Shown here: positions 6,337 through 63,011 of the stretch, one piece after another
Layout of the letters: every line of letters starts with the position of its first letter
How positions within the stretch are numbered: position 1 is the first letter of the stretch
NCBI GenBank assembly: GCA_023134715.1
Contig: JAGLUP010000002.1
Coordinates: 1-64,000 of the forward strand
DNA length: 64,000 nt
Reading direction: 5' to 3'
Origin: Candidatus Parcubacteria bacterium
GTDB lineage: Bacteria; Patescibacteriota; Minisyncoccia; Minisyncoccales; JAGLUP01
Position numbers and translations under genes: made by a program
Notes under the pieces: generated by a model
What the model was told of the DNA's origin: nothing
Database searches by the model: none
What the model saw: the letters and a program-made list of their open reading frames with translations, nothing else

Positions 6337-6662
6337 GAAAATTTTTTCATAAAGAATTAGCAGAAGGGAAATGGTTTGAACTTTCTTTGGCAGAACAACT
6401 ATCAAACATAGGAAGCGAAGTGAATAGAACAAGCAAATGGCAGAATAAAAACGAAAAGCTTTTTCAAAACGCGGCTGAACGGGCATTAGAACTTTTTGAC
6501 TTAACGCTTGAAGACGCTCGCTGGCGCGGCCGTCTTCGGGAAATCGGAAGATTGCGAGAAATATTTTGCGACGCTCTTCTTGGAGGAAAAAACTACAAAA
6601 GCTCTTTTAAAGATCTTGAGCATTATTTTTTACAATTTACATTTCTTGCTCAAAACTATTGA
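6333..6662 (+). CDS. Hypothetical protein coupled to DUF5674
   Basis: A 109-residue, probably all-helical protein with tryptophan- and arginine-rich middle (EDARWRGRLREIGRLREIFCDALLG). No family recognised. It overlaps the DUF5674 gene by four bases, indicating translational coupling. Its TGA stop lies inside the -35 box (TTGACA) of the following cassette-type promoter. Confidence 0.65.
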   Translation: MRKFFHKELAEGKWFELSLAEQLSNIGSEVNRTSKWQNKNEKLFQNAAERALELFDLTLEDARWRGRLREIGRLREIFCDALLGGKNYKSSFKDLEHYFLQFTFLAQNY

Positions 6663-6961
6663 CATTTTTTCACTTTATGGTATAATTAAAAATGTTAAGG
6701 AGAGAGATACCGATTTTAATTATTCACGAAAAACAGACCTCTCCTTTAGACGTCTGTTTTTCTTTATTGACAGTTCTTTAGAAAAACAAAATAAAAAGAA
6801 AGAGAAAACAGTCGGGGAAGTCATCCCCGTCCCCGTGGAATATTCTCCTGCTGATTGAGGTTCTAATAATCGCAAATTTTGACAAATATTGACACGAATT
6901 TAGGCGAATTTTGGAATTTCAATCGGCAGGAGAATAATATTATTCTCCTCCGGAGGTAAAA
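6659..6961 (+). promoter_or_regulatory. Cassette leader A: promoter, attenuator hairpin, boxA-like motif, RBS hairpin
   Basis: TTGACA (6659-6664) and TATAAT (6681-6686), 16-base spacer. AAGGAGAG (6697-6704) is perfectly complementary to CTCTCCTT (6739-6746) in the loop of a 10-bp hairpin, AAAAACAGAC (6729-6738) with GTCTGTTTTT (6752-6761), which resembles an intrinsic terminator. AGTTCTTTA (6772-6780) resembles boxA. A purine tract AAAAAGAAAGAGAAAA follows. A 16-bp stem (6842-6857 with 6920-6935) ends just before the GGAGG ribosome site. The same parts recur at 54516, 59317, 61417, 61772 and 62555. The regulatory mechanism is inferred. Confidence 0.75.
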
Positions 6962-7342
6962 ATGGCCAGTATGGAAAAAGTTAAAAAATTTTTAGAGGTA
7001 AGTGAATCAAGGAAGCAATACGTCCTTATAGTTGAACATATGATAACACAAATAAGGACAGAAATTGGAAATGAAGAGGTGCTCGACAAATTTAGCGAAG
7101 TAATGAACGCGGTGGGTGTCAAAATAATGGATGCAATTGAAAAAATTTATGCCGATTTATTCTCAGATGAAGAAATTGACGAACTAATTCTTTTGCATTC
7201 TAGTCCGATGGCTATTCGTTCTCGTGAACTTCAGCCAAAGATTTTAGAAAAAATCGGGCTTATCAGTAGTGCCATTATTGACGAGGAAATAGAAAAAGCG
7301 TTTGCTGACGGAAAAGCAGAAAAACCATTTGTTGGCGAATAA
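6962..7342 (+). CDS. Small DUF2059-like protein (cassette gene A)
   Basis: 126 residues, soluble, without signal peptide. The C-terminal half, ending in YADLFSDEEIDELILLHSSP and then RELQPKILEKIG, resembles the DUF2059 pattern (FSxEEIxELIxFYxSPxG). Function unknown. A strong GGAGG lies six bases before the ATG. It is the gene carried by the first of the repeated leader/3'-hairpin units. The DUF2059 link is a weak motif-level call. Confidence 0.6.
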   Translation: MASMEKVKKFLEVSESRKQYVLIVEHMITQIRTEIGNEEVLDKFSEVMNAVGVKIMDAIEKIYADLFSDEEIDELILLHSSPMAIRSRELQPKILEKIGLISSAIIDEEIEKAFADGKAEKPFVGE

Positions 7343-7345
7343 ATC

Positions 7346-7425
7346 TTTTCTCTTTCTTTTTTTCTTTTTTCGAGCTCAGAATGTACGAGACCCGACCTCG
7401 TACAAGATTGTGGGTTGGAAAAAGG
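7346..7425 (+). repeat. Cassette 3' element A (pyrimidine tract plus hairpin)
   Basis: The tract TTTTCTCTTTCTTTTTTTC is followed by CTTTTTTCGAGCTCA, which can pair with TGGGTTGGAAAAAGG around an inner hairpin TGTACGAG/CTCGTACA (7382-7404). The pyrimidine tract is complementary to the purine tract of leader A. Six such elements occur in the window. Confidence 0.75.
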
Positions 7426-7442
7426 TGAATAGAAATAAACAA

Positions 7443-7475
7443 AAACCGACGGAAGCATGTCTTTCGTCGGTTTTT
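7443..7475 (+). terminator. Intrinsic terminator after cassette A
   Basis: AACCGACG-GAAG pairs with CTTT-CGTCGGTT over a short loop, followed by six T. Confidence 0.88.
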
Positions 7476-7512
7476 TATTGATTGATATTTGGGATAATGA
7501 TATAGTGAGATA

Positions 7513-54519: not shown

Positions 54520-54797
54520 CATTTTTGGACATTATGGTATAATTAAAAATGTTAGGAGAGAGAAACTGATTTTAGTATATTGACGAAAAACAGACCTCTC
54601 CTTTGAATGTCTGTTTTTCTTTATTGATAGTTCTTTAAATAACAAAAAACCCTCCTTCGTTAAAAACTATGGAGGGCAAAGAAAGAAAGAGAAAAAACAG
54701 AGAAGCCATCTCCGTTAAATATTCTCCTGCTGATTGAGGTTCTAAGTTTTGGACCTTAGTCAGCAGGAGGATAATTTATCCCTGCGAGGTGAAAAAG
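54516..54797 (+). promoter_or_regulatory. Cassette leader B
   Basis: TTGACA (54516-54521) and TATAAT (54538-54543). Hairpin AAAAACAGAC/GTCTGTTTTT (54586-54618) with CTCTCCTT in its loop, complementary to the upstream TAGGAGAG. AGTTCTTTAAAT (54629-54640) resembles boxA. CCCTCC/GGAGGG hairpin (54650-54676), purine tract AAAGAAAGAAAGAGAAAA, then RBS-proximal stem CTCCTGCTGA/TCAGCAGGAG (54724-54769) and GAGGTG. Same order as leader A. Confidence 0.78.
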
Positions 54798-55241: not shown

Positions 55242-55246
55242 ATAGT

Positions 55247-55309
55247 TTTTTTTCTTTCTTTTTTTCTTTTTTCGAGCTCATAAAACAAGGATTGTGGGTT
55301 GGAAAAAAG
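55247..55309 (+). repeat. Cassette 3' element B1
   Basis: TTTTTTTTCTTTCTTTTTTTC tract (given in part) then CTTTTTTC (55266-55273) GAGCTCA pairing with TGGGTT GGAAAAAAG (55302-55309). Loop TAAAACAAGGATTG. Confidence 0.78.
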
Positions 55310-55366
55310 TGAATAAAAAATAAACAGCTCTTTTAATTAAATAAAATAAAAAAAGAGGGAAAGAAA

Positions 55367-55537
55367 ATGATTGCAATTGGTAAAACAAATTTAATAGGAG
55401 ATATACCTGGAAATCTTTCTAGGGTAATTTTAGGAAAAGATTTCTGCATGGAAAACGGTGCATTGTTAAAAATAAAAGAGGAGAGAAAGGAAACGTTGAA
55501 ACGAATTAAAAGAAATGTGGAACGTCAACGACCTTAA
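55367..55537 (+). CDS. Small basic protein (cassette gene B2, 56 aa)
   Basis: MIAIGKTNLIGDIPGNLSRV then ILGKDFCMENGALLKIKEE and a basic end RIKRNVERQRP. AGAGGGAAAG before the ATG may serve as ribosome site. It follows element B1 and is followed by element B2. Unrecognised. Supported by position and by the flanking elements rather than homology. Confidence 0.5.
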   Translation: MIAIGKTNLIGDIPGNLSRVILGKDFCMENGALLKIKEERKETLKRIKRNVERQRP

Positions 55538-55594
55538 CTCTTCTCTTTCTTCTTTTTTCGAGCTCATAAAACGGGTTTGTGGGTTGGAAAAAAG
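55538..55594 (+). repeat. Cassette 3' element B2
   Basis: CTTCTCTTTCTTCTTTTTTCG, in part: CTTTTTTC (55552-55559) and GAAAAAAG (55587-55594) with GAGCTCA/TGGGTT inside. Confidence 0.75.
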
Positions 55595-55615
55595 TAGATA
55601 GAAGTAAACGAAAAA

Positions 55616-58859: not shown

Positions 58860-59320
58860 TTCCTGAATTAAAAATTTTCTTAATCGCTATGACTCCATTC
58901 GGAGAACTAAGAGCGGCGATTCCAATTGCTCTTGAGATTTATAAGCTTCCAATTTGGTCAGCTTATTTTTGGTCGGTTTTAGGAAATTTAGTGCCTGTAA
59001 TTTTAATTTTAAAAGGATTAAAAATAACTTCAGAATACCTTTCTCACAGGATTTATTTTTTTAATAGATTTTTCGCCTGGCTTTTTGAAAGAACCAGAAA
59101 TAATCATGCTCAAAAAGTTAAAAAATGGAAAGAATGGGTATTGATAGCTTTAGTAGCTATTCCATTGCCTTTTACCGGAGCGTGGACTGGAAGTTTAGTT
59201 GCTTTTGTTTTTGGATTTCCTTTTAGAAAAGCGTTTCCTTTAATTGTTCTTGGCGTAATGATTGCTGGAATTATTGTAACTTTTACGACTTTGCTGATAA
59301 CTAAAGGATTAACCCCTTGA
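58856..59320 (+). CDS. Small multidrug-export-type membrane protein (Sm_multidrug_ex family)
   Basis: 154 residues from ATG 58856 (ATGA overlap with the ATPase stop). MTPFGELRAAIPIALEIYKLP, GNLVPVILIL and IPLPFTGAWTGSLVAF are typical of the PF06695-type family, with about four TM helices. Name is historical; function not established. The TGA stop forms part of the -35 box of cassette leader C. Confidence 0.8.
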   Translation: MIPELKIFLIAMTPFGELRAAIPIALEIYKLPIWSAYFWSVLGNLVPVILILKGLKITSEYLSHRIYFFNRFFAWLFERTRNNHAQKVKKWKEWVLIALVAIPLPFTGAWTGSLVAFVFGFPFRKAFPLIVLGVMIAGIIVTFTTLLITKGLTP

Positions 59321-59573
59321 CATTTTTTCGCTTTATGATATAATTATAATTGTTAAGGAGAGAGAAACTGATTTTAGTATATTGACGAAAAACAGACCTC
59401 TCCCTTAGATGTCTGTTTTTCTTTATTGATAGTTCTTTAAGTAAAAAAAAGAAAGAGAAATGAAATCTTCAGGGCAGTAAATTGATAATTAATAATTAAT
59501 TATTAGCTTAATGCTCTGAAGAAATTTGATAATGTCAGGTTTTCTGGTGATGGCAGATATATTGAGGTAAAAA
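59317..59573 (+). promoter_or_regulatory. Cassette leader C
   Basis: TTGACA (59317-59322) and TATAAT (59339-59344). AAGGAGAG (59355-59362) faces CTCTCC in the loop of AAAAACAGAC/GTCTGTTTTT (59388-59420). AGTTCTTTAA (59431-59440), purine tract AAAAAAAAGAAAGAGAAA, a stem CTTCAGGGCA/TGCTCTGAAG (59467-59521) and a GAGGT ribosome site. The last 90 bases resemble those of leader E, not A or B. Confidence 0.78.
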
Positions 59574-59909
59574 ATGGATACAAAATGGAAAATATTATGG
59601 ATAATAGTGGTCTTGGGATTGCTTGCGATATACCCTGTTGCGCTTCATACAAGCGGGACCAGTAAGGAAATAACAGTGAAAGAAAAATGGGTGAAATACC
59701 ACAGAGAAGATGCTAAATATTTATTCTCCGATGAAGAGAATAATGTATATAGTATTGAAGATTCTATTTGGCTTATAAAATTTGATGCGTCAGATAGATA
59801 TGCAAAGATAACAGAAGGAAAGAGATATCTTATCAAAACATATGGCTGGAGAATTCGGATATTATCATCCTATTCAAATGCTATGGGAATTACTGAAATA
59901 TCTAACTAA
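59574..59909 (+). CDS. DUF1523-like membrane-anchored protein (cassette gene C)
   Basis: 111 residues. N-terminal TM helix (KILWIIVVLGLLAIYPVALH), then EITVKEKWVKYHREDAKYLFSDEENNVYSIEDSIW and KFDASDRYAKITEGKRYLIKTYGWRI (in parts). The pattern KYLxFxExxxVYxxxDS...KFDxSDxYxxxxxGKxYxxxxYGWRxxxLSxYxN fits DUF1523 and phage small proteins; a motif-level call. Confidence 0.6.
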   Translation: MDTKWKILWIIVVLGLLAIYPVALHTSGTSKEITVKEKWVKYHREDAKYLFSDEENNVYSIEDSIWLIKFDASDRYAKITEGKRYLIKTYGWRIRILSSYSNAMGITEISN

Positions 59910-59913
59910 TAAT

Positions 59914-59974
59914 TTTTTCTTTCTTTTTTTCTTTTTTCGAGCTCATAAAACAATGTTTGTGGGTTGGAAAAAAG
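59914..59974 (+). repeat. Cassette 3' element C
   Basis: TTTTTTCTTTCTTTTTTT tract, CTTTTTTC (59931-59938) and GAAAAAAG (59967-59974), inner GAGCTCA/TGGGTT. Confidence 0.78.
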
Positions 59975-59984
59975 AAAAATTAAA

Positions 59985-61372: not shown

Positions 61373-61416
61373 AAACTAAAATTATTGCAGACATTGCAAA
61401 TATTTTCAAAAAACGC

Positions 61417-61560
61417 TTGACATTTTTTCATTATGTGGTATAATTAAAACATAAATGGAGAGAGAAATTTGTCATTAAATAACAAACGACTCTTCCATTT
61501 TTGGAGAGTCGTTTGTTATTTCAGCTCTTTAGTTTCCAGCTCTTTTTTTAAAAAAAGAAA
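61417..61560 (+). promoter_or_regulatory. Cassette leader D (divergent)
   Basis: TTGACA (61417-61422) and TATAAT (61439-61444). TGGAGAG upstream can pair with CTCTTCCA. The hairpin is different in sequence: a 17-bp perfect stem, 61477-61493 with 61505-61521. AGCTCTTTA (61523-61531) is even closer to boxA. The tract AAAAAAAGAAAATG runs into the start codon. Same layout as leaders A-C with compensating changes. Confidence 0.72.
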
Positions 61561-61698
61561 ATGAAAAAACCAACCACGGAAATAGAAGGAAATAAAAAAC
61601 CAACCACAACGACAGAAGCTATGGCAGAAACTATGATAGTTATTGCAGGAACTCCTGTACCCGCTAGTCAGGCAAAACAATATAGAGCAATATTCTAA
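61561..61698 (+). CDS. Small Thr/Pro-rich protein (cassette gene D, 45 aa)
   Basis: MKKPTTEIEGNKKPTTTTEA then MAETMIVIAGTPVPASQAKQ and YRAIF. Low complexity, no TM helix. Unrecognised. Called because it fills the gene position between leader D and its 3' hairpin; it could be non-functional. Confidence 0.4.
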   Translation: MKKPTTEIEGNKKPTTTTEAMAETMIVIAGTPVPASQAKQYRAIF

Positions 61699-61751
61699 AT
61701 TTTCTTTTTTAAGAGACGGTAAAACCAAATTTATTTGTGTTTTACCGTCTC
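61699..61751 (+). repeat. Cassette 3' hairpin D
   Basis: Tract ATTTTCTTTTTTAA then GAGACGGTAAAAC (61713-61725) pairing perfectly with GTTTTACCGTCTC (61739-61751). It has the position and shape of the other 3' elements, not their sequence. Confidence 0.65.
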
Positions 61752-61771
61752 AACCTTATTTTCAATAGCAA

Positions 61772-62037
61772 CGAGAGAATTCTTTTTAAACAAAATGCAC
61801 ACGTCAGGTCTGTGTAAATTTGAAAAGAGCTCTCTCCTTGTTAGAAATAAAAAAAACAGTTCTTTAAATAAAAAAACCCTCCTTCGTTAAAACTATGGAG
61901 GGCAAAGAAAGAAAGAGAAATGAAATCTTCAGGGCAGTGAATTGATAATTAAACAATTAATTGTCAGTTTAATGCTCTGAAGAAATCTGATAATGTCAGA
62001 TTTTCTGGTGACGGCAGATATATATTGAGGTGAAAGA
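61772..62037 (+). promoter_or_regulatory. Cassette leader E
   Basis: CGAGAGA near 61772 can pair with TCTCTC near 61831. Then CAGTTCTTTAAAT (61857-61869), CCCTCC/GGAGGG hairpin (61877-61902), tract AAAGAAAGAAAGAGAAA, stem CTTCAGGGCA/TGCTCTGAAG, ATCTGA/TCAGAT and TTGAGGTGA before the ATG. I see no promoter of its own, so transcription may come from leader D. Confidence 0.7.
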
Positions 62038-62458: not shown

Positions 62459-62540
62459 TTTTTTCTTTCTTTTTTTCTTTTTTCGAGCTCAGAAAAATGT
62501 ACAAGACCCGACCTCGTACATTTTGTGGGTTGGAAAAAAG
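62459..62540 (+). repeat. Cassette 3' element E
   Basis: Pyrimidine tract, CTTTTTTC (62477-62484), GAGCTCA, an inner hairpin GTACAAG...CTCGTAC like that of element A, TGGGTT and GAAAAAAG (62533-62540). Confidence 0.78.
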
Positions 62541-62554
62541 CAAACAAAAATAAA

Positions 62555-62711
62555 AAAAACAGTTCTTTAAATAAAAAAACCCTCCTTCGTTAAAACTATG
62601 GAGGGCAAAGAAAGAAAGAGAAAACAACAGAGAAGCCATCCCGGGGGACACCCCGGTGGATATGAATCTTACTCTTCCGGCAAAGATTGGAAGAAAAAAG
62701 AGGTGAAAAAC
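62555..62711 (+). promoter_or_regulatory. Cassette leader F (short)
   Basis: Lacks promoter and attenuator; begins at CAGTTCTTTAAAT, CCCTCC/GGAGGG (62580-62605), tract AAAGAAAGAAAGAGAAAA, a CCGGGGG/CCCCGG region and GAGGTGAAAAAC before the ATG. Nearly identical to leader E over the first 60 bases. Confidence 0.72.
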
Positions 62712-62882
62712 ATGGATAGAAAAAATATATTGATTGTTATGATATTCCTGATAGTGGGGAGTTTAACGACAATCATTGCGTCGCTAATAAGCACAGGCAC
62801 AGTGAATAAAGAACTATTGGAAATTATATTTAATGTAGACGCGCTCATTCTCGTCTATGTTGGAATATTAAGCATTCATTAG
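62712..62882 (+). CDS. Small two-TM protein (cassette gene F, 56 aa)
   Basis: MDRKNILIVMIFLIVGSLTT and IIASLISTGTVNKELLEIIF then NVDALILVYVGILSIH. Two hydrophobic helices. ATG lies six bases after GAGGTG. Too short for family assignment. Confidence 0.55.
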   Translation: MDRKNILIVMIFLIVGSLTTIIASLISTGTVNKELLEIIFNVDALILVYVGILSIH

Positions 62883-62884
62883 TT

Positions 62885-62939
62885 TCTCTTTCTTTTTTTC
62901 TTTTTTCGAGTCCATAAATATTTGTGGGTTGGAAAAAAG
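62885..62939 (+). repeat. Cassette 3' element F
   Basis: TTTCTCTTTCTTTTTTTC, CTTTTTTC (62900-62907), GAGTCCA (instead of GAGCTCA) facing TGGGTT, and GAAAAAAG (62932-62939). The C/T swap keeps pairing through G-T. Confidence 0.78.
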
Positions 62940-63011
62940 AGGTTAGAGATGCTCTCGTCCTGCATCTTTGCTCTCTCCTAGACGTAGGATGGGAGCTTCT
63001 CTGACCTTTTT
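62940..63011 (+). terminator. Large double-stem terminator
   Basis: AGGTTAGAGA (62940-62949) pairs with TCTCTGACCT (62998-63007) around a 13-bp inner stem GCTCTCGTCCTGC/GTAGGATGGGAGC; five T follow. Confidence 0.82.

Follow-up and report, generated by a model that had tools for sequence, protein, structure and literature searches.

In a group of tiny bacteria, dozens of mostly unrelated small protein genes appear to be transcribed within an rRNA-like frame, in which a boxA-like site and a leader-trailer helix would close the message into a loop. We hold this reading with moderate confidence. The window, that is the whole stretch of 64,000 nucleotides analyzed, contains six cassettes with a full 3' element (A, B, C, D2, E, and F), and five further cassettes were found on its contig, C5. 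The order of the parts is constant: promoter, AGYTCTTTRAAA, 8 nt, 5' strand of the closing helix, leader hairpin, gene, 3' strand, 2 nt, and 3' hairpin. Tandem arrays (B-C, E-F, and G-H, and four cassettes consecutively in G017) have a boxA and a helix for each cistron. At the sequence level we found paired tracts in a fixed register, covariation, hairpins, and syntenic sites occupied by different cargo. Since the cassettes share a common frame, have ends that pair and carry an rRNA-type signal at the start, their messages are probably closed loops and their cargo exchangeable. For rRNA, leader-trailer helices and tethering through boxA are textbook knowledge, and we know of no protein-coding message family built like rRNA units; searches of Rfam and the literature returned none of this build. 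All genomes compared are draft bins, placed in Patescibacteria on the grounds of genome size, gene content, and literature.

Table 1. Coordinates of the cassette features in the window.
Feature	Position	Strand	Basis or remark
Cassette A, promoter, TTGACA ... TATAAT	6659..6686	+	Sequence; recurs at four further leaders of the window genome
Cassette A, leader domain 1, GGAGAG .. AAAAACAGAC-CTCTCC-GTCTGTTTTT	6699..6762	+	84-89% identity to four other leaders
Cassette A, boxA-like site, AGTTCTTTAGAA	6772..6783	+	Family consensus AGYTCTTTRAAA; cf. boxA GYTCTTTAANA (PMC5725501)
Cassette A, closing helix 5' strand, purine tract AAAAAGAAAGAGAAAA	6793..6808	+	Exact complement of 7346-7361
Cassette A, stable leader hairpin	6841..6936	+	Inverted repeat; leader folding z = -7.9
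Cassette A, Shine-Dalgarno GGAGG, predicted paired	6952..6956	+	Folding
Cassette A, cargo gene, 126 aa	6962..7342	+	DUF2059 match weak, below cut-off
Cassette A, closing helix 3' strand, pyrimidine tract TTTTCTCTTTCTTTTT	7346..7361	+	Exact complement of 6793-6808
Cassette A, 3' hairpin, CUUUUUUC-G-AGCUCA ... UGGGUU-G-GAAAAAGG, nested apical hairpin	7364..7425	+	R2, 61.5 bits; covariation
Cassette B, boxA-like site, AGTTCTTTAAAT	54629..54640	+	
Cassette B, 5' strand	54678..54698	+	20.7 expected pairs in context
Cassette B, cargo gene, 147 aa, one TM segment	54798..55241	+	
Cassette B, 3' strand and 3' hairpin	55245..55314	+	R2, 73 bits
Cassette C, boxA-like site, AGCTCTTTTAAT	55326..55337	+	Immediately 3' of the B hairpin
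Cassette C, cargo ORF, 56 aa	55367..55537	+	Closing helix weak, 0 expected pairs in context
Cassette C, 3' element	55535..55599	+	R2, 69.4 bits
Cassette D2, promoter	59317..59345	+	
Cassette D2, boxA-like site (59431-59442) and 5' strand (59443-59460)	59431..59460	+	
Cassette D2, cargo gene, 111 aa, DUF1523 / PHROG 301	59574..59909	+	
Cassette D2, 3' strand and 3' hairpin	59914..59979	+	R2, 77.2 bits
Cassette D (doubtful), promoter-like site, tract AAAAAAGAAAA (61551), 45-aa ORF (61561-61698), TTTTCTTTTTT (61700)	61410..61716	+	
Cassette E, boxA-like site, AGTTCTTTAAAT	61858..61869	+	
Cassette E, 5' strand	61904..61920	+	Register and in-context folding
Cassette E, cargo gene, 139 aa	62038..62457	+	
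Cassette E, 3' strand and 3' hairpin	62460..62545	+	R2, 59.7 bits
Cassette F, boxA-like site, AGTTCTTTAAAT	62561..62572	+	Immediately 3' of the E hairpin
Cassette F, 5' strand	62607..62623	+	Register and in-context folding
Cassette F, cargo gene, 56 aa, membrane protein	62712..62882	+	
Cassette F, 3' strand and 3' hairpin	62883..62944	+	R2, 73.9 bits; AGUCCA variant with pairing kept

The first-pass annotation of the window had described the leader tract of cassette A as perfectly complementary to the tract following its gene. This was confirmed over 16 nt, and in-context folding gave 15.7 expected pairs between the two. No other perfect inverted repeat in the 64 kb reaches 16 nt at a spacing of 100-1000 nt. 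Order-1 Markov resamples of the window contained a mean of 0.18 such repeats, and the tract pair of cassette A is therefore by itself only a mild surprise. The same annotation stated that D, F, and C behave similarly. Complementary tracts were indeed found for D (61551/61700, 11-12 nt) and F (13 nt), but the match in C was weak (8 nt).

It had also been proposed that the tracts of A, C, D, and F covary. Within the window this was not the case, as mixed pairs fit equally well. When all leader and 3' tract combinations of the window were scored pairwise, same-cassette pairs had no advantage over mixed ones: leader A and the 3' tract of F match over 15 nt, leader D2 matches those of A and F over 17 nt, and leader D can pair with most of the other 3' tracts over 11 nt. 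For the cassettes of the window genome the mean score was 32.71 for true pairs and 32.85 for mixed pairs. The fits are the same because the tracts of this genome are nearly identical copies, and the window itself therefore gives no support for covariation. Such equal fits would also be seen if A-rich leaders and U-rich 3' ends paired by coincidence of low complexity, without selection, and chance alone yields about 0.2 such repeats of 16 nt in an AT-rich genome.

Across genomes, where the tracts truly differ, sequence comparison clearly favored own tract pairs over mixed ones. Relatives carry, for example, AAAAGGAAGGGAAA with TTTCCCTTCCTTTT, AAAAATAGGGAG with CTCCCTATTTTT, and AAGAGAGAAAG with CTTTCTCTCTT. 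Leaders were placed by the boxA-like site and purine content, and complementarity was not used. For 57 cassettes from 24 genomes the duplex energy was -18.1 kcal/mol for own pairs and -15.0 kcal/mol for permuted pairs, a difference reached by 0 of 20000 permutations. When permuted within genomes it was reached by 820 of 20000 (p = 0.041), with the limit that some cassettes come from related genomes and that within-genome permutations correct for kinship only partly. In a curated set of 46 cassettes from 20 genomes, from which 11 cassettes with doubtful boxA calls had been dropped after the first ranking was seen, the score was 27.6 for own and 22.6 for mixed pairs (0/20000 permutations; 3/20000 within genomes). 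The own-pair preference was unchanged with one cassette per genome. Scores fell when the last 21 nt of the 3' tract were shuffled (mean z 1.79), and they were also lower when the 3' tract was read backwards (p = 1.7e-4), a mirror control that keeps composition and runs. For the rplU/recR site, two genomes of a single genus gave scores of 26.5 and 27.5 with own pairs and of 17.5 and 18.5 with swapped pairs.

Folding of full-length messages gave a mean of 9.3 pairs between own tracts and 4.6 with tracts of other genomes (p = 4e-7), and at least six own-tract pairs were found in 33 of 40 messages. Complementarity of leader and trailer around the gene was thereby found in comparative as well as thermodynamic tests. 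A convincing helix was absent in C, D, and a few cassettes of relatives. The permutation, mirror, within-tract shuffle, and context-folding controls all favor own pairs and, together with the fixed register of both strands, leave a low-complexity coincidence highly improbable. The strong purine/pyrimidine bias at both ends of most cassettes would fit a further possibility, in which proteins or small RNAs bind each tract separately, e.g., a U-tract-binding chaperone at the 3' end, with the complementarity as a by-product. Separate sites do not predict that the two tracts change jointly between cassettes, and we consider this explanation very unlikely.

The positions of the paired strands were fixed with respect to the conserved elements. 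The best pairing begins a median of 8 nt (IQR 6.5-8) past the boxA-like site and stops a median of 2 nt (IQR 1-3.5) ahead of the 3' hairpin. The proposal that the mRNA closes into a 5'-3' duplex around the gene is thus supported by this register and by the own-pair preference across genomes, and not by the window evidence cited for it. The suggestion that the duplex covers the start codon in D does not describe a feature of the family. Cassette D lacks the 3' hairpin and gave no match in the R2 search described below, and the 45-aa ORF directly next to its tract has no Shine-Dalgarno sequence; for these reasons it is a doubtful family member. At 61549-61760 this ORF is followed by a perfect GAGACGGTAAAAC/GTTTTACCGTCTC hairpin, and D may be the remnant of a cassette or belong to a leader.

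A stable hairpin was found between the 5' strand and the start codon in all 32 leaders investigated (z < -2 in each; mean z -7.3 relative to simple shuffles). In 62% of the 32 leaders the Shine-Dalgarno sequence was predicted by folding to be at least 60% paired. Pairing of this kind would be expected of an RNA thermometer or translational switch, and only this share of the leaders shows it. A related possibility is a control of the icaR type, where a 3' pyrimidine tract would mask the purine-rich leader and block translation or create an RNase III site, without any involvement of boxA. For icaR, a duplex of 5' and 3' UTR that is cleaved by RNase III has been established (PMC3868564), and the purine 5' strands of the cassettes do look like Shine-Dalgarno sequences. 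However, the 5' strand is located tens of nucleotides upstream of the start, beyond the stable hairpin, and where the Shine-Dalgarno is hidden it is masked by the local hairpin and not by the 3' tract. The best pairing also lies right after boxA, away from the Shine-Dalgarno. We therefore find an icaR-type control unlikely.

A covariance model, R2, was built from aligned 3' elements and is the source of the counts given here. Of the 247 genomes of the order, 48 gave matches, frequently at more than one locus. In a sample of 379 genomes from the phylum R2 matched two genomes of the order and gave seven weak matches (E about 1e-4 to 1e-3 for those outside the order), i.e., the element is scarce outside the order. 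Among 33 aligned sequences, 8 of 17 pairs showed changes on both sides and 95% of the cells were paired; the covariation values were reached by 0 of 500 shuffles. The middle of the stem keeps a one-base mismatch, mostly G opposite G. A Hoogsteen triplex of the U-tract with the A-rich arm of this hairpin is conceivable. The hairpin was rejected as a terminator because it is followed by A-rich sequence and not by a U-run, and true terminators, where present, follow separately, e.g., at 7440-7480.

A search of the window with Rfam covariance models returned tRNAs only, with no rRNA and no other known RNA family above the gathering score, and at seven cassette loci nothing besides tRNAs and sub-threshold chance matches was obtained. 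By inspection of the 33 aligned 3' elements, the attC core sites RYYYAAC / GTTRRRY were not present at the hairpin ends. Pattern scans of IMG/VR with two 3' motifs returned no locus carrying both, hence nothing there suggested a viral element. A lone match from a contig scan in an unrelated bacterium (32 bits, R1 model) was taken as chance, and so were A-rich matches to leader DNA within the order. Four loci (L288, L294, L295, and L300) have a promoter and exact boxA leaders, some with a hairpin and a small ORF, and no 3' hairpin within the stretch fetched. They are probably further cassettes with diverged 3' elements.

The family consensus AGYTCTTTRAAA matches the boxA recognized by NusB/S10, whose published gamma-proteobacterial form is GYTCTTTAANA (PMC5725501). 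Within 900 nt upstream, 26 of 91 3' elements had AGYTCTTTGAAA at no more than one mismatch, compared to 1 of 91 for the reversed and 0 of 91 for the reverse-complement sequence. At two mismatches, which many of the sites carry, the result was less clean (62 of 91, with 9 and 29 for the controls). The exact 12-mer occurred 31 times in 12 genomes, several of these being in coding DNA, and its reverse 7 times. The same 12-mer is located past the 16S promoter in two cassette-bearing relatives and just upstream of 23S rRNA in a third. The 16S leader of the window genome (G000) contains only AGTTATTTGAAA, and its 16S operon has a leader-trailer stem of its own which differs in sequence from the cassettes. 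NusB is encoded in 11 of 12 genomes tested. We infer that the AGUUCUUUGAAA leader RNA is a candidate target for NusB/S10.

The cargo is encoded by short genes, of 30-250 aa in most cases, that for the most part bear no relation to one another. Cassettes with differing cargo are located between convergent rplU and recR in G000, G005, G058, G086, G087, G110, G113, and G114; for G005 and G087 the recR-dnaB side alone is visible in the fetched stretch. A second shared site, between the 6333-6662 gene and an efflux adaptor gene, is occupied in G000 and G058, and a third in four genomes. Homology between two genomes of one genus covers the promoter-boxA flank but not the tracts, the leader hairpin, or the gene, and leader modules are reused ahead of unrelated genes in the window genome.

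A role of the tracts in DNA would suit these observations: cargo and tracts vary between syntenic neighbors at the rplU/recR gap in 8 genomes, the one genus keeps the flank homology while tracts and gene differ, and the leader modules recur before unrelated genes. The tracts would then be inverted repeats or recombination arms that border an exchangeable cargo unit, with the promoter-boxA on one side and the 3' hairpin on the other staying fixed, and matched tracts would travel with the gene. The first-pass annotation had offered inverted repeats of a mobile unit as its alternative, but this is not the simplest reading since the conserved promoter, boxA, and 3' hairpin flank the tracts on the outside. 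RNA-type conserved features thus extend past the tracts on both sides with fixed spacing, the 3' hairpin covaries as RNA, and neither a target-site duplication nor a recombinase was identified in an unsystematic look. Under strict scoring the leftover mismatches were G-U more often than A-C (14 v 7, 14 v 5, or 10 v 2 depending on the setting), which mildly favors RNA over DNA; under looser scoring there was no G-U excess (28 v 35). We regard a DNA role as less likely than RNA pairing, and as unlikely on the whole.

For the preferred reading, pairing of the tracts in the message, we infer the following course. RNA polymerase would initiate at the TTGACA/TATAAT promoter and then transcribe boxA, and NusB/S10 bound there would hold the 5' end close to the polymerase, as they do in rRNA operons. 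Located about 8 nt past boxA, the 5' strand would wait for the 3' strand, which emerges right after the stop codon. The two strands would form a closing helix of 10-20 bp that could stack on the 3' hairpin 2 nt away. The entry point to this closed-loop message would be the very stable leader hairpin, which often hides the Shine-Dalgarno. In tandem arrays every cistron would have its own boxA and helix, like 16S and 23S rRNA. A likely outcome in the cell would be a role in stability or processing, with a message that is untruncated and exonuclease-resistant or released by RNase III; another would be a cargo slot, where a gene and its matched tracts are replaceable.

In E. coli, boxA with NusB bound to it is thought to keep the leader strand with the polymerase up to the time at which the trailer emerges (PMC10250234). 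The cassettes resemble the E. coli rrn operons in having boxA soon past the promoter and then a helix strand that is closed by sequence 3' of the gene (PMC10250234), in the separate boxA for each tandem unit, and in the nearly fixed spacing between boxA and helix. Unlike rrn operons, they enclose small protein genes and no rRNA, their strand begins about 8 nt past the boxA 12-mer compared to 18-19 nt, and they add a dedicated conserved 3' hairpin and a leader hairpin that often hides the Shine-Dalgarno. Formation of the E. coli 30S requires >17 bp, a length that most of the cassette helices (10-20 bp) do not reach. The boxA-regulated mRNAs of suhB and the ParE-like toxin likewise have boxA in the 5' UTR, but in the description of them we found neither a 5'-3' closing helix nor a conserved 3' hairpin, nor a family with exchangeable cargo (PMC5725501). 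icaR differs in being a single gene that pairs the Shine-Dalgarno itself, without a boxA or a cassette family (PMC3868564). Integron cassettes are also small unrelated genes at shared sites, with a conserved structured element after each; the present cassettes differ from these by having their own 5' leader and, by inspection, a 3' element without attC core motifs.

If closed-loop messages are indeed formed, the cassettes would be a natural system for asking what a boxA-anchored loop does to RNA apart from ribosome assembly. They would also provide a sequence tag for the many fast-changing small genes of Patescibacteria, archaeal-type proteins included. Two cargo proteins of G058, a bacterial genome, look archaeal in type: that of L256 (G058:C50) has a TFIIB repeat (Pfam E = 1e-12), and that of L244 (G058:C25), encoded between rplU and recR, has a C-terminal PGF-CTERM sorting signal (E = 1.5e-9). 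Parasitism of methanogens is known from members of the class Paceibacteria (PMC10936435); that the cassette-bearing genomes belong to such parasites is a guess. The cassettes as a whole could be a hypervariable cargo system of fast-exchanged small proteins, some archaeal in type and hence possibly aimed at an archaeal host, carried on rRNA-style closed-loop messages and replaced at fixed sites as a unit of gene and matched tracts. This wider view is speculative and we rate it as distinctly unlikely.

One cargo protein family (31-40% identity) was found in three genomes (L090 4409, L234 1942, and L217 4223) and had no Pfam match. L262 (G090:C22) and L263 (G113:C15), from bins that belong to two different families, share an 8.2-kb stretch at 99.95% identity. 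Because the G113 copy shows synteny with G017, a genome from the family of G113, the contig in G090 was probably assigned to the wrong bin. Leader domain 1 was found at 6699-6762, 54555-54620, and 59358-59423 in the window and at L090 3769-3832. By inspection, its complementarities GGAGAG/CTCTCC and AAAAACAGAC/GTCTGTTTTT are interleaved, with a terminator-like U-run upstream of boxA, and the domain is a possible pseudoknot. A second leader type, AACGAGAGAATTC ... GAGCTCTCTCCTTGTT, replaces domain 1 ahead of E, J, and K.
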